Origin: Teichococcus aerophilus
GTDB lineage: Bacteria; Pseudomonadota; Alphaproteobacteria; Acetobacterales; Acetobacteraceae
Direction of reading: 5' to 3'
DNA length: 64,000 bases
NCBI RefSeq assembly: GCF_014490485.1
Contig: NZ_JACTVA010000027.1
Location: 1 to 64,000 of the forward strand
Shown here: positions 4,040-55,634 of the stretch, in pieces
Layout: each line of letters opens with the position of its first letter
Numbering within the stretch: the stretch's first letter is position 1
Notes under the pieces: model-generated
Told to the model about the DNA's origin: nothing
What the model saw: the letters and a program-made list of their open reading frames with translations, nothing else
The model's database searches: none
Translations under genes and position numbers: made by a program

Positions 4040-4123
4040 TTCTTTATCGGATCAGTCCGGCGTCGCGACAATCCATAAAACGCTCTGCTTGGCTGAGGGG
4101 GAGGCGCGGTACGTGACGGTTGG

Positions 4124-4371
4124 GAAGGCCGGGGAAAGAATTCCCCGGACCCCTTCTTTTCTTTGCGCGTTTGGCATCGCGCTCGAAGTGAAGGCGGACG
4201 CTGCTTGATGATTCCAAATATGGGCCGCACGGGCTGAATCGTCAGTTGCCGGAGGTCCCAGACCTCCGGCGGGAACTAGCCGGCCCAAACAACAGCGGAC
4301 ATCTCAACAGACACGCCACCAAAAACTCGAAAAAAAGAAGGAGCCCGGGGAATTCTTTCCCCGGCCTTCGC
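4124..4371. repeat. Rpt-A copy 2
   Basis: A full-length unit of about 248 bp. The plus-oriented hairpin end is at 4124-4172 and the inverted end at 4325-4371, each with GAATTC inside a CCGGGG/CCCCGG stem. The internal dyad CCGGAGGTCCCAGACCTCCGG (21 nt; halves GGAGGTC and GACCTCC) lies near 4250-4271. The unit sits between the 3' end of the helicase gene and the 5' end of the receptor-like gene, so only its right end can terminate an annotated gene. Confidence 0.85.
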
Positions 4372-6731: not shown

Positions 6732-7034
6732 ATTCTATCCTCCAGGCGCGCGGGGAATGTCCGGCGCACCATGCGTCTCAAGCAAAAGGGGGGCCAGGGG
6801 AATGGCAGGGGTGCAGGCACCGGGCCGTCGCGAACTGGCGAAAGGCGCAGCCACATGCCGCGCGTTTGAAAGGCTTCTACAGCAAAACGACCCCAGGTCC
6901 AGAATTACCGCGCCACGGAATAGCCGGGTTGCGCACAGGTCGGAGGAGGTGGGAATGCCATGCCGTCCTGTGAAATTCTGGCGTGAGAGCAACGCCTTGA
7001 GGGTGCTCCATACTAGGTGAGGTACCGCCTGGGG
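6732..7034. other. Upstream region of the helicase gene, no gene seen
   Basis: About 300 bp. One minus-strand frame is open (6735-6992) but its predicted protein has no recognisable features and it ends against the helicase start. No tRNA-like fold or convincing promoter was found. Confidence 0.4.
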
Positions 7035-7405
7035 CTTGAGAGGGGCGCTGCCCCTCTCAAACTCTCCCCGCCAAAGGCCTGAGGCCTTTGGAAACCCTTT
7101 TGTCAGATGCCAAGGCAGGGGCTGAGATGAGCAATTATTATATTGTTATATAAAGATTTTTAAATGGATCACGAAGCTGAAATGAGGCTCCGGAGGCTGC
7201 TATTGTGCCAGGAGGATGCCAGGGAGGTGGCTCCCCTCTCGTTCCACCTCTACGGCATTTCCCACGCCCGTTCTGTCGCCATCCGGCAGAAGCCGCCATT
7301 CAGCGCTCGCAAGTACACAAACGCCACGGCCCGCCGCCCCAGCCCGCCGCAAAACTCGCAGAAAAAAGGAAGGGGTCCGGGGAATTCCTTCACCGGCCTT
7401 CCCCT
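7035..7405. repeat. Hybrid unit: Rpt-C left end, AT-rich core, Rpt-A right end
   Basis: The left end (7035-7096) is an Rpt-C double hairpin: GAGAGGGGC/GCCCCTCTC, then CCAAAGGCCT/AGGCCTTTGG. The core has an AT island at about 7131-7164, very unlike its surroundings, followed by ATTTTTAAATGGATCACGAA, which resembles the Rpt-A core of other copies. The right end (7352-7405) is a standard Rpt-A hairpin downstream of the YdcF gene on the minus strand. It indicates that ends of different families can be combined. Confidence 0.65.
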
Positions 7406-12480: not shown

Positions 12481-12662
12481 TGCGAGGGGCGCCGTCCCGC
12501 TCAAACTCTCCGCCAGAAGACTGGAGACCTTTGGAAGCCCGTTTTTGGAAACACTCCACCGAAACAGCAACGCCCCGAAGTCGCCCAGGCCGAAACCCCT
12601 GCATCGCGGTGCAGGGGATCGCATCCCCTGCCGGAGGAGTTCGAGGGGGCAGCGCCCCCTCG
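12481..12662. repeat. Rpt-C/D unit, copy 1
   Basis: One end (12481-12546) is a worn Rpt-C module with a GACTGGAGACCTTTGGAAGC remnant. The other (12611-12662) is an Rpt-D double hairpin: GCAGGGGATCGCATCCCCTG then GAGGGGGCAGCGCCCCCTC. The Rpt-D end sits just past the dehydrogenase stop and, read on the minus strand, is a plausible terminator. Confidence 0.65.
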
Positions 12663-12676
12663 ATCAACCGCGCCCC

Positions 12677-15188: not shown

Positions 15189-15423
15189 GCCAGCCCGGCC
15201 GGCCGGAATTGATCCAGATCATGGCGAAACCGGCCTGGAAGCCCGATTCTGAAGGCGCCGGCGCCGTGAAGTGATGCCACCTCTGCCCCGTCCCAAGGCA
15301 TCGCGGCGCGGGAAACGCCGGAACACAGTTGCGAGACCGCAATCACGCCGGGGATCGTTGCCGGCCTGGCTCCAGGTTCCGTGGCCCTGCGTTGGCTGCG
15401 TCTTCTACGGAAATTCATTGGGT

Positions 15424-15632
15424 CTTGAGAGGAGCTCTGCCCCTCTCAAACTCTCCCCGCCAAAGGCCTGAGGCCTTTGGAAACCACGGTTATGTCCGGT
15501 TCGTGGATAAGAGCGACGGACTTTTGGGTGATCGTGCTGGTGGATCAGCCGGAGTTCGATCTCTTCCACCTCGCGGGTGCAGGGGATCGAATCCCCTGCC
15601 AGGGGAGCTTGAGGGGGCGGCGCCCCCTCAAC
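15424..15632. repeat. Rpt-C/D unit, copy 2 (intact)
   Basis: The Rpt-C end (15424-15485) has GAGAGGAGC/GCCCCTCTC and CCAAAGGCCTGAGGCCTTTGG-type stems (halves of 10). The Rpt-D end (15579-15632) has GCAGGGGATCGAATCCCCTG and GAGGGGGCGGCGCCCCCTC. About 90 bp of unrelated DNA lies between. The unit fills the gap between msrQ (3' end at 15656) and the transporter start. The remaining 15189-15423 stretch shows no gene. Confidence 0.75.
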
Positions 15633-15655
15633 CCTCGCCAACCGAGAGAGTCTCC

Positions 15656-17168: not shown

Positions 17169-17293
17169 GGACCCGAGACCCAAGCCATCGGGAAAGCCCG
17201 TTCCAGGCCGCGCTAGTTGAACCAACCTCTGCAATCTGACCCATCATCGCGCCGGCCCGCCGATGTCTGGCCCGCCGTTGCCGAATCGCCGGT

Positions 17294-17336
17294 GCAGGGG
17301 ATCGCATCCCTTGCCAGTGGCGCCCGAAGGGGCAGA
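17294..17336. repeat. Solo Rpt-D module (degenerate)
   Basis: GCAGGGGATCGCATCCCTTG followed by GAAGGGGCAGAGCCCTCTC, matching the Rpt-D ends at 12611 and 15579 but with mismatches in both stems and no Rpt-C partner. The rest of the 17169-17514 gap shows no gene. Confidence 0.55.
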
Positions 17337-17514
17337 GCCCTCTCGGTCCACACTCCAAGCCAGCGCTCCCTACAACGCCCCCGTCGACAGGCGCCCGCCG
17401 CACCGGCAGCGTTGACCCTCCCGACCCCAGGTCACGCGGCCCTGCCCTTCCATCGCCGCCCCTTCCCCCCGCCTCCGGTGGCGGCTATCCGGGCGGCCTG
17501 ATGTTTCCACCGAG

Positions 17515-19097: not shown

Positions 19098-19450
19098 AGC
19101 GAAGGCCGGGGAAAGAATTCCCCGGACCCCATCTTTTCTTTTTTCGAGTTTTTCTGGCGGGGCTGTTGAGGTTGGGTATGAGAGACAGCTGGGTGCGCCG
19201 GAGGTCTAGAGCATTTCCGTTCGCACAGGCTCACTTCGAATGCTCTAGCTTGTTGTTTTGAAGAGCATCTTCACGCCATCGGGTGATTCCACCTGATGGT
19301 GATCTGCTCTAGGATCTCCGGCGACTGACCGTCCAGCCTGCATCGCCCATTTATAAAATCATCAAGCAGCGTCAGCTCTCAGTCCCGAAGCGCTTCGCCA
19401 AACTCACAAAAATGAAGATGGGGCCCGGGGAATTCCTTCCCCGGCCTTGC
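19098..19450. repeat. Rpt-A copy in a divergent promoter gap, interrupted by Rpt-B
   Basis: The left hairpin end is at 19098-19156 and the inverted right end at 19400-19450, both with GAATTC. The central dyad reads GCGCCGGAGGT before 19206 and GATCTCCGGCG after 19312; between them lies a complete Rpt-B. Without the insert the unit is about 250 bp, as elsewhere. It lies between two gene starts, so neither end follows an annotated gene, which argues that the unit is not merely a terminator pair. Confidence 0.9.
19207..19311 (+). repeat. Rpt-B copy inserted in the CTAG centre of Rpt-A
   Basis: The first hairpin pairs AGAGCATT with AATGCTCT; the second pairs TCACGCCATC with GATGGTGA around GGGTGATTCCACCT. 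The element begins GAGCATTTCC at 19209 and ends GATCTGCTC at 19309. TA flanks it on both sides (19207-19208 and 19310-19311), within CTAG at 19206-19209 and 19309-19312. The uninterrupted Rpt-A copy at 48254-48504 has a single CTAG at the same place (48363-48366). Confidence 0.88.
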
Positions 19451-19563: not shown

Positions 19564-21153
19564 ATGCATCGTCGCACCCTGTTGCAGGGGGGCGCCGCGT
19601 TGGGCGGCATCGCCCTCGCCCGTCCGTCGCTGGCCCAGCCGGCCCGTTCCGCCGCGTTGCGCTTCGTGCCGCAGGCCAACCTGACGGCGCTGGACCCGAT
19701 CTGGACCTCCGCCATCGTCACGCAGATGCATGGCTACCACGTCTATGACACGCTCTACGGCGTGGACGCGCAGCAGAAGCCGCATCCCCAGATGGCCGAG
19801 GGCCACACCGTCTCGGACGACAAGCGCACCTGGCGCATCACGCTGCGCCCCGGCCTGCGCTTCCATGATGGGGAGCCGGTGCGGGCCAAGGATGCCGCCG
19901 CCAGCCTGGAGCGCTGGTCCAAGCGCGACCCCTTCGGCCAGATCCTGGCCAAGGTGGTGGAGAGCTGGGGCGCGCCGGATGACCGCACCATCGAGATCAA
20001 GCTGACGCGTCCCTTCCCGCTGCTGCTGGATGCCATCGCCAAGCCGGACGCCAATGTCGCCTTCATCATGCCGGAGCGGCTGGCGCGCACCGATGCCAAC
20101 ACGCAGGTGTCGGAGGTCGTCGGATCCGGACCGTACCGCTTCATGAAGGATGAGTTCGTCGCCGGCAGCCGCAGCGTCTATGCCAAGTTCGATGGCTACA
20201 CGCCGCGGGATGGCGTGGCGGACTGGACCAGCGGCGGCAAGGTCGCGCATTTCAACCGCATCGAGTGGAACATCCTGCCGGACCCGGCCACCGCCGTCGC
20301 CGCACTCTCCAACGGCGAGGTCGACTGGGTGGACCAGCCGCTGTCCGACCTCATCCCGCTGCTGTCGCGCAACCGCAACGTGAAGGTGGATACGCTGGCG
20401 ACAGCCGGCTTCCTCAGCATCATGCGGCTGAACCACCTGCAGGCGCCCTTCAACAACCCGAAGGTCCGCCGCGCCGTGGCGCTGGCCATCAACCAATCCG
20501 ACTACATGGGCGCGACTTTGGGGGAGGACCGCTCCGTCTGGCGCGAATGCCACAGCCTGTTCCCCTGCGGCACGCCCTACGGCACCGAGGACCTCTCCCC
20601 CCTCAACGCCCCGCCGCGCGGCCTGGACCGCGCCAAGGCCGCTCTGGCGGAGTCTGGCTACAATGGAGAGAAGGTGGTGATCATCAACCCCACCGACTTC
20701 CCGCTGATCGGCCCGCACGGCCAGCTGACCGCCGACCTGCTGACCCGGCTGGGCATGAACGTGGACCTGATGGACAGCGACTGGGGCACCGTCGTCCAGC
20801 GCCGCGCCTCCCGCGAGGGCACCGATAAGGGCGGCTGGAGCATCTTCCACACCTATGGCTCCGCCATGGCCTATATCAACCCGGCCGTCTCCTCCCTGGT
20901 GAAGGGCCCGGGCGCCAATGGCTGGTTCGGCTGGTACACCAGCCATGAGCAGGAGGAGATGATCCAGACCTGGCTGGACGCGCCGGACGAGGCCGCGCAG
21001 AAGCGCATCGCCGATGCGGTCAACAAGAAGGCGCAGGACGACGTGGCGACCATCCCGCTCGGCCAGTTCTTCATCCGCACCGCGTATCGCAGCAACCTGA
21101 CCGGCTTCGTGAAGGGCAGCATGCCGTATCCGTGGGGCGTGCGGCTGGCCTAG
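19564..21153 (+). CDS. ABC transporter substrate-binding protein, family 5 (peptide/nickel type)
   Basis: 529 residues. The N-terminus MHRRTLLQGGAALGGIALARPSLAQ has a twin-arginine-like export signal with a hydrophobic core. The SBP_bac_5 pattern runs throughout: LDPIWTSAIVTQMHGYHVYDTLYG, WRITLRPGLRFHDGEPVRAKDAAAS and VVGSGPYRFMKDE. Such periplasmic lipoprotein-like or soluble proteins deliver peptides, opines or metals to a Dpp/Opp-type permease. No permease or ATPase genes are beside it, so it is an orphan binding protein whose partner lies elsewhere. Ligand is not determinable here. The upstream gap is mostly Rpt-A. Confidence 0.88.
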   Translation: MHRRTLLQGGAALGGIALARPSLAQPARSAALRFVPQANLTALDPIWTSAIVTQMHGYHVYDTLYGVDAQQKPHPQMAEGHTVSDDKRTWRITLRPGLRFHDGEPVRAKDAAASLERWSKRDPFGQILAKVVESWGAPDDRTIEIKLTRPFPLLLDAIAKPDANVAFIMPERLARTDANTQVSEVVGSGPYRFMKDEFVAGSRSVYAKFDGYTPRDGVADWTSGGKVAHFNRIEWNILPDPATAVAALSNGEVDWVDQPLSDLIPLLSRNRNVKVDTLATAGFLSIMRLNHLQAPFNNPKVRRAVALAINQSDYMGATLGEDRSVWRECHSLFPCGTPYGTEDLSPLNAPPRGLDRAKAALAESGYNGEKVVIINPTDFPLIGPHGQLTADLLTRLGMNVDLMDSDWGTVVQRRASREGTDKGGWSIFHTYGSAMAYINPAVSSLVKGPGANGWFGWYTSHEQEEMIQTWLDAPDEAAQKRIADAVNKKAQDDVATIPLGQFFIRTAYRSNLTGFVKGSMPYPWGVRLA

Positions 21154-41651: not shown

Positions 41652-41905
41652 CGAAGGCCGGGGAAGGAATTCCCCGGACCATTTTTTCTGTTTTCGAATC
41701 TTCCCAGCGTGCCTGTTGAGAGGCGTATCCTGGCGTCCGACTGGTGCGCCGGAGGGTCTTAGACCTCCGGCTACTGAGGGTTCAGCCCGCGTGGCCCATT
41801 TTTAATACCATCACGAAGCGCCGCCTCGACCCTGACGCGCGACGCCAAACTGCCAAAAAGAAGATGGGGTCCGGGGAATTCCCTCCCCGGCCTTCCTCCA
41901 TTTCG
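41652..41905. repeat. Rpt-A copy 14
   Basis: 254 bp. The left end (41652-41700) is GGCCGGGGAAGGAATTCCCC with CATTTTTTCTG; the right end (41846-41905) has GGGGAATTCCCTCCCCGG. The dyad GCCGGAGGGTCTTAGACCTC (near 41749-41768) and GGGTTCAGCCCGCGTGGCCC are near-consensus, in the same orientation as copy 16. Confidence 0.88.
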
Positions 41906-44692: not shown

Positions 44693-44702
44693 GGCATAGC
44701 TA

Positions 44703-45070
44703 GGAAGGCTGGGGGAAGGAATTCCCCCAGACCCCCCATCTTTTTCTAAGTGTTTTCGGGGCGTGAGTGTGAAGGTGATGACCTTCGATTGAGGCTGCAG
44801 ATCGCTGGAAGGTTGTTACCTCCGGCGGCCGTTGCAACGCTGCGCGCAGCCATAATATTTCTTCTAGATCCAGCAAATCGAGCAGAGCTCCATCCAGTGA
44901 ATCACTTGAAGGAGGGAAGATACGCTTCAAAACGACAAGCCAGAGCATTTGATTGGTGAGCTTGTGCGAACGGCAAATGCTGTAGCGCTGCCCTTTGGCG
45001 CCAGAACCGCCCATCTAAACTCCACAGAAAAAAGTTGGGGGTTCGGGGGAATTCCTTCCCCCGGCCTTTC
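44703..45070. repeat. Rpt-A copy 15 with Rpt-B-like insert
   Basis: Left end 44703-44757 (GGCTGGGGGAAGGAATTCCC, CCATCTTTTTC) and right end 45016-45070 (GGGGGAATTCCTTCCCCCGG). An Rpt-B-like hairpin lies at 44942-44984: AGAGCATTTG pairs with CAAATGCTGT, and TGTGCGAACGG matches the reverse of the copy at 19207. The rest of the core is diverged. Confidence 0.78.
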
Positions 45071-45268
45071 CCACCTTCAACCTGCCATGACGATACCGTT
45101 ACGCAAACGACGCCCCGAAGCCTAGGGCTTGGCCGGTCATATTCGCGGACGTCCCTTTCCCCCACGGTGGCTTCATCGATGACAAATCCTCACCTGCGCG
45201 GCCCGCGCGCAGCCGATGGGCCGATTGCGCGGTTGCGGCACGCCCCCGGCACACCTTATTTGAGGGCC

Positions 45269-48253: not shown

Positions 48254-48504
48254 AGGAAGGCTGGGGAAAGAATTCCCCGGACCCCTTCTTTTACTTTTTC
48301 GAATTTTTCGGGTGTGGCTGTCGATGGGTTGAACCTGCGAGACGGCTCGGTGCGCTGGAGGTCTAGGACCTCCGGCGACTGCGGGTTCAGCCCGCACGGC
48401 CCATGATTAAAATCATCAGAAGCGTCCAGCTCTCAGCCCTGAAGCGCAGTGCCAAACTCGCAGAAAAAAGAAGGGGTCCGGGGAATTCGTTCCCGGCCTT
48501 CCTC
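48254..48504. repeat. Rpt-A copy 16, uninterrupted reference copy
   Basis: 251 bp. Left end 48254-48310 and inverted right end 48454-48504. The core GGTGCGCTGGAGG then T-CTAG-GACCTCCGGCG (CTAG at 48363-48366) is the empty-site counterpart of the interrupted copy at 19098-19450. Core continues with GGGTTCAGCCCGCACGGCCC and AAAATCATCAGAAGCGTCCA. Confidence 0.9.
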
Positions 48505-55381: not shown

Positions 55382-55634
55382 CTGAAGGCCGGGGAAAGAA
55401 TTCCCCGGACCCCTTCTTTCCTTTCTGCGAGTTTGCGGATGGCGCTGCAGGACTGAGGGCGGACGCTGCCTGATGATATTTAAAATGTGCAGCGAGTTCT
55501 GAACCCTCAGTTGCCAGAGGTCCCAGACCTCGGCCGCACCCAGCCGTCCTCAAGACCGGCCCTTCCCACAGACACGCCCGGAAACTCGAAAAAAAGAAAG
55601 AAGGGGCCCGGGGAATTCCTTCCCCGGCCTTCCT
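55382..55634. repeat. Rpt-A copy 18
   Basis: 253 bp. Left end 55382-55434 (GGCCGGGGAAAGAATTCCCC, CCCCTTCTTTCCTTTCTGCG) and right end 55580-55634 (consensus). Core GGACTGAGGGCGGACGCTGC, then CCAGAGGTCCCAGACCTCGG near 55515-55534. It lies between divergent nudix and suf genes, so neither end follows an annotated gene. Confidence 0.87.

Follow-up and report, generated by a model that had tools for sequence, protein, structure and literature searches.

The window, a stretch of 64,000 nucleotides, is from contig C61 of a Roseomonas-like draft genome (5.66 Mb in 140 contigs), which we refer to as its own genome, or G000. A split copy of a repeat, Rpt-A, sits at 19098-19450 between a small gene that resembles an ATP-binding gene (19071-18493) and another gene at 19564-21153. 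The protein from the latter gene is 90% identical to a protein of Acetobacteraceae bacterium AT-5844 and 83-84% identical to its counterparts in two Pseudoroseomonas species. A second repeat, Rpt-B, splits the Rpt-A copy, which is the older of the two. The features that we will discuss are:

19071-18493, minus strand: small gene with the look of an ATP-binding gene (named by eye)
19098-19450, plus strand: Rpt-A copy that hosts the insertion, about 250 bp without the insert
19207-19208: left TA of the target duplication, within CTAG at 19206-19209 (from the letters and the flank statistics)
19209-19309, plus strand: Rpt-B, 101 bp, ends GAGCA...TGCTC, probably a non-autonomous IS630-type element (from the sequence and the comparison of copies)
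19209-19245, plus strand: hairpin 1 of Rpt-B, GAGCATT...AATGCTC (from the fold; helix 1 is paired in 80.7% of cells)
19263-19309, plus strand: hairpin 2 of Rpt-B, with outer arms GAGCA/TGCTC, long inner arms, and GATTC at the loop (from the fold and compensatory changes)
19310-19311: right TA of the target duplication (from the letters)
44880-44985, minus strand: second Rpt-B of the window, decayed, in a divergent Rpt-A (about 44702-45071) and off the dyad
48254-48504, plus strand: uninterrupted Rpt-A, a paralogous empty site, with the dyad GGAGGTCTAGGACCTCC at 48357-48373 and CTAG at 48363-48366

At the split copy, the window reads CCGGAGGTCTA (19198-19208), then Rpt-B, then TAGGATCTCCGG. At 48254-48504, where Rpt-A is uninterrupted, the sequence is GGAGGTCTAGGACCTCCGG and CTAG occurs once. 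If the insert and one TA are removed, the split copy is 81% identical to this uninterrupted copy over 248 aligned columns. An earlier note on this DNA had described Rpt-B as inserted in the middle of the Rpt-A dyad. The note's coordinates and letters are exact, and the filled and empty sites that it paired within the window do form such a pair. A scan of the window against Rfam gave nothing that reached the gathering scores.

Rpt-A, a repeat of 250 bp, is highly abundant and has hairpins at its ends (GGGGAA-GAATTCCCC) and a dyad in its middle. There are 18 clusters of Rpt-A matches in the window, some of them fragments (for instance, 4123-4369, 41653-41896, 48255-48502, and 55384-55633). A first look at the whole genome gave 573 candidates, of which 40 were scored. 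Across the other genomes of the genus, we found 27 matches in G010 and one to three in G006, G007, and G016; the other 12 genomes had none at E <= 1e-20 among the 40 or fewer candidates scored in each. By eye, there is no obvious target duplication around Rpt-A.

Rpt-B is short, lacks a transposase gene, and is bounded by the terminal inverted repeats GAGCA...TGCTC. We found 26 matches in its own genome and, across the genus, at least 150 (E <= 1e-10), spread over 10 of the 17 genomes. (The genus count is a lower bound, with 40 candidates scored in each of G004, G013, and G014.) The richest genomes are G004 (at least 41) and G014 (at least 39). For comparison of copies, we took the first 23 matches from the own genome, leaving out three short ones, and 97 of the 126 from other genomes. 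Of these 120 copies, 116 were parsed (L007, L032, L041, and L052 were dropped). The parsed copies are 96-103 bp long, with 101-103 bp in 112 and exactly 102 bp in 96. By eye, the copies in the own genome are more decayed, while those in G004 and G014 are more alike and hence younger. Beyond the genus, plasmids were searched with two consensus queries (blastn, E 1e-5): Rhodovastum matched at 77% identity over as much as 83% of the query length, two records from Komagataeibacter matched over 44% of it, and rhizobial plasmids had no matches. We found no description of Rpt-B in the open-licence literature, and the main text of a review of MITEs (PMC10969869) has no occurrences of IS630, CTAG, TA dinucleotide, stop codon, nested, or RIME. 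At one locus in G004 (L122, G004:C45:194915-195330), two Rpt-B copies lie in tandem with one common junction (CTGG), as if one had entered the other's end.

If Rpt-B inserts at TA, then its copies should be flanked by TA, and the earlier note proposed to check this. Most copies are: 107 of the 116 parsed copies have TA on at least one side and 58 have it on both. Among the 60 copies from G014 and G004, these numbers rise to 60 and 41. Reading outwards from GAGCA, the left flank of these 60 copies has A in 55, T in 52, and C in 55; reading outwards from TGCTC, the right flank has T in 54, A in 57, and G in 50 (with A in 9 and T in 1). The edge is sharp at GAGCA/TGCTC, and base composition is ordinary one step beyond the flanking C and G.

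The flanking sequences also distinguish the duplicated unit from the preferred target. Among the 58 copies that TA flanks on either side, 47 have the full CTAG at both flanks. Eight of the other 11 fit a TA duplication at another site (CTAG/CTAA in three, TTAG/CTAG in two, TTAG/CTAA in two, and CTAG/CTAT in one), and in the remaining three, the element's own end base has changed. None of the 11 repeats the same 4-mer. The duplicated unit is TA, and CTAG is a target preference: CTAG is seen twice because its outer C and G come from the preferred target and its inner G and C come from the element. The earlier note had allowed a duplication of either TA or CTAG; TA is correct and CTAG is not. If one transition is allowed on each side (TA, TG, or CA), 100 of the 116 copies are flanked on both sides, and the altered TAs are mostly TG/CA. 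Perhaps this reflects mismatch repair at CTAG, which is a guess.

Orthologous empty sites also carry a single TA. We compared two sister species, with G014 as the filled allele and G004 as the empty one, and obtained three clean pairs, each with a single C-TA-G in the empty allele. At C29:37781, the filled allele reads GAAGAACTACTAG-element and the empty allele reads GAAGAACTACTAGGCGC (AACTACTAGGCGC), and the TAG ends a gene in frame. At C1:436709, which is upstream of an ATG, the empty allele reads CGCTAGAGGACAAGAATCATG and the left TA of the filled allele is CA. At C4:226525, the empty allele reads GCCAGCCTAGCCCGCC and the right TA of the filled allele is TG. At a fourth site (C4:228878), G004 lacks Rpt-B and the junction is too diverged to read. 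At C29:38947, G004 could be aligned along the left flank only, and for C1:441661 we obtained no flank from G004. So the orthologous empty sites that the earlier note proposed to look for do exist, in these sister species rather than at the window locus. At the window locus, the neighbouring gene has a match in one other genome of the genus (E <= 1e-8, 71% identity), where the gene alone matches and the flank does not; in the named relatives, what is common is the downstream gene plus at most about 50 bp before it.

We then considered which transposase might move Rpt-B. The earlier note proposed to compare the ends with those of an IS630 element in the same genome. The own genome has no matches to DDE_3 (PF13358, IS630) at E <= 0.001; matching ends are found elsewhere in the genus. 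(The own genome has one weak match to the N-terminal frame of one IS630, at 31% identity and E 0.0018.) The DDE_3 domain of IS630 is present in 9 of the 17 genomes, and the genus contains IS630 elements of about 1.05 kb whose TA-flanked, GAGC-type ends (CTA-GAGC...) resemble those of Rpt-B: GAGCGGTTTCCG, GAGCATTTCCCG, and GAGCATGATCTG. In an automatic test for end pairs, 5 of 28 IS630 loci passed with a GAGC-type pair (L135, L137, L143, L150, and L154). Further IS630 loci have one or both GAGC-type ends by eye or are truncated at contig ends. Of the two frames of L150, frame 2 matches the NCBIfam model for IS630 above its cut-off (E 6e-36) and frame 1 matches below it (E 1e-15); the frames also match DDE_3 and HTH_Tnp_IS630 from Pfam.

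The ends of Rpt-B match the ends of these IS630 elements. The left end is within one mismatch of one of four IS630 end 12-mers in 59 of the 116 copies. The right end is a weaker match, with 2 of 116 within one mismatch and 70 of 116 within two. As a control, we used 535 other 12-mers that follow TA: one was within one mismatch and two were within two, and the 12-mer that matched exactly may come from an Rpt-B copy that escaped masking.

A second group of IS630 elements has unrelated ends (GTGTCCTGATCG or near). Members of this group directly abut Rpt-B, with one TA in common, in G004, G008, and G009, which is expected if both use CTAG. Also abutting an Rpt-B copy is a palindrome of about 43 bp (L323:3838-3880, in G014:C4) whose ends (TGCCCTGATCG...CGATCAGGGCA) are like those of the second group; perhaps this is a still smaller MITE.

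Since the own genome shows no IS630 DDE domain at this threshold, its decayed Rpt-B copies look stranded. We infer that the genome no longer carries the transposase, though it is conceivable that a copy was missed in a draft of 140 contigs. Because no partner was found, movement of Rpt-B in its own genome is probably over.

Given the TA rule, the empty sites, and the IS630-like ends in the genus, which all favour the IS630/Tc1-mariner-type insertion proposed in the earlier note, we are confident, from comparison of sequences, that Rpt-B is a gene-free MITE that is moved in trans by an IS630-family transposase (DDE, Tc1/mariner superfamily). The transposase would recognise the GAGC-type terminal inverted repeats of Rpt-B, excise the element, and insert it at a TA, preferably within CTAG, which would leave TA on both sides. 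In the window, one such insertion went into the CTAG in the middle of an Rpt-A dyad. These cut-and-paste steps are established for the IS630 family.

A transposase of the IS5/IS427 type is an improbable alternative mover. Such transposases can also use YTAR targets and duplicate either TA or 4 bp, as for IS711, which belongs to the IS5/IS427 family, and for MITEPsy1. For IS711 of Brucella, PMC2266754 reports duplication of TA within YTAR and insertion in both orientations at one site, and it names palindromic repeats (Bru-RS) as insertion hot spots. Rpt-B resembles IS711 in that TA is duplicated in a YTAR-type target, both orientations are found at one site, and a palindromic repeat is hit. 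However, IS711 is a full IS rather than a MITE, and Rpt-B shows no preference for dyads in G014 and G004 (see below). MITEPsy1 of Pseudomonas syringae, a 100-nt MITE, appears in PMC3189936 under “IS5?”, with CTAG or YTAA as the duplicated sequence. It has the CTAG target in common with Rpt-B, but its duplication is of 4 nt and its terminal repeats are different. IS5-type genes (PF13340) are also abundant, with 203 matches across all 17 genomes and 15 in the own genome. But none of the 30 IS5-type loci that we examined (of the 203) has GAGCA or GAGCGG ends (one has TA-flanked GGGCCTG ends), and the lack of any repeated 4-mer around the copies whose flanks are not both CTAG also argues against this type of mover.

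The earlier note took the nested copy as direct evidence that Rpt-B moves. By itself, a lone nested copy does not show this, as a single insertion could have been copied along with Rpt-A, and the window copy would then be silent on independent movement. Rpt-A is numerous enough for this, and of the 23 Rpt-B copies in the own genome, four are flush within Rpt-A, three are less clear, and two are beside it. The flush copies are the window copy (L001), which lies in the dyad and has the orientation of Rpt-A itself; L002 and L013, which lie in the dyad in reverse, with L013 one base out of register; and L017, which is at another TA of Rpt-A. Among the less clear copies, L008 also reaches the dyad and has some 130 bp of other sequence next to it, and L004 and L018 are within incomplete or divergent Rpt-A. 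L003 and L007 adjoin Rpt-A. Because the three dyad copies differ in orientation or register, the Rpt-A dyad was hit repeatedly, by at least three separate insertions, and this supplies what the lone copy could not. Furthermore, no match to Rpt-A lies within roughly 200 bp of 14 of the 23 copies. G004 and G014 contain many copies of Rpt-B, and in neither did any of the 40 scored candidates for Rpt-A reach E <= 1e-20. Copying along with Rpt-A is already contradicted for the Rpt-B family, and we consider it very improbable.

The dyad contains CTAG in 14 of 30 aligned copies of Rpt-A. This share may be too high, since the query itself contained CTAG and the copies aligned were its 30 closest matches. 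We also considered whether a dyad is itself a target signal. For the 41 copies from G014 and G004 with TA on both sides, the flanks had 130 symmetry matches, while shuffled flank pairs had a mean of 125.8 (standard deviation 9.1), and a fraction 0.33 of 2,000 shuffles scored as high. We rejected this idea.

The window's Rpt-B folds as two hairpins (z = -4.2; none of 200 shuffles was as stable). We aligned 30 copies, taken from 8 genomes. Pairs are formed in 88.9% of the pair cells of this alignment, as compared to 36-40% when it is slid. Both sides have changed in 54 cells, which none of 500 shuffles reached; 41 of these are in the inner arm of hairpin 2 and 13 are in hairpin 1, where about 19% of cells are broken. 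These scores for compensatory change are inflated by the relatedness of the copies, and two other counts are not extreme: that of doubly changed pairs (9, reached by 35 of 500 shuffles) and that of pair types (27, reached by 112 of 500). Given the counts of changed and broken cells, the inner arm of hairpin 2 is well supported and hairpin 1 is less so. With the same alignment, RNAalifold preferably pairs the outermost bases of the element's two ends with each other. The arms may persist through transposase contact, an RNA function, or arm-to-arm conversion.

Two hairpins next to a tetranucleotide might also suggest a REPIN-like unit that is moved by a Y1 (HUH) transposase without any duplication, with one CTAG as the target and the other as a cleavage site borne by the element, and the CTAG/CTAG arrangement alone would be compatible with this, but the right tetranucleotide is not fixed (CTAA and CTAT occur) and varies apart from the left one, the ends match IS630, and the empty sites carry one TA, so this is the least credible explanation of all.

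As a MITE of the IS630 family, Rpt-B is best read as working like RUP with IS630-Spn1, given its short length, its TA duplication, and its IS630-like ends. RUP of Streptococcus pneumoniae is described in PMC2229807 as gene-free and about 107 bp, with terminal repeats like those of IS630-Spn1, a TA target, and an association with ISs. On that description, Rpt-B is similar in size, lack of genes, ends, target, and association with IS elements. We liken the two by description, and they differ in that Rpt-B has two separate hairpins and its IS630 partner is missing from its own genome.

The anatomy of Rpt-B recalls CIR, from Caulobacter and Brucella. The description of CIR in PMC2229807 gives about 110 bp, TA ends, two long inverted repeats with a linker, and GANTC at the loop; it lists no terminal repeats and leaves the mobility of CIR unexplained. 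Judging from that description, Rpt-B is likewise alphaproteobacterial, with two stem-loop arms and a linker, TA ends, and a similar size. Unlike in CIR, GANTC in the loop is not kept across the genus: it is present in the loop segment of 24 of the 116 copies, with 15 of 22 in G000, 3 of 3 in G008, 0 of 32 in G014, and 0 of 9 in G001. We compare Rpt-B to CIR by description only and do not claim that it is a member. Another such repeat is RIME1 of Rhizobium, reportedly described by Osteras in 1995 as about 108 bp, intergenic, and made up of two large palindromes.

Many Rpt-B copies are at the ends of genes. In G014 and G004, the flanking TAG is an in-frame gene end for 25 of 40 copies, versus 1 of 160 out-of-frame tests (the sole case, L119, has its edge parsed one base off). 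The corresponding numbers are 5 of 22 copies in G000 and 10 of 14 copies in five other genomes, versus 2 of 56 out-of-frame tests there. In a cruder first test, 117 of 164 flanks were in the stop phase. At these gene-end insertions, the copied TA restores the stop codon. However, CTAGs without Rpt-B are often stop codons as well. This holds for 5 of 11 beside the copies in G014 and G004 and for 9 of 22 from a set of eleven IS loci; in the window, it holds for 2 of 19. (These controls are small, and the IS-locus set includes CTAGs at IS ends and overlaps one flank locus.) We therefore rejected stop codons as a special target. The siting at stop codons may mostly reflect the scarcity of CTAG in genes, plus selection; the window has 22 CTAGs where 53 are expected.

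We tentatively suggest that Rpt-B may belong with two-arm repeats of the CIR and RIME1 kind, that these are carried by IS630 transposases, and that their hairpins are kept by selection for transposase contact or an RNA function, though this is rather more doubtful than the IS630 origin of Rpt-B itself. Insertion into CTAG at a TAG stop would then cost the host almost nothing, since the duplication of TA restores the codon.

The kind of event seen here is well understood, and the element is newly described. As an IS630-type MITE, Rpt-B would be a documented one for Acetobacteraceae: its boundaries and target rule are defined, its empty sites are known, and it has a plausible partner. It offers a route to explaining other two-hairpin repeats from alphaproteobacteria. 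It also illustrates how CTAG, which is scarce in the window and frequently serves as a stop codon in this genus, may influence the sites at which elements of this type persist.

The window contains other repeats as well. Another family of 62 bp, with the palindrome GCAGGGGATCGCATCCCCTGC, is found at 12607-12668, 15575-15636, and 17290-17351, and a pair of 67-bp repeats with 96% identity is found at 7030-7096 and 15419-15485.
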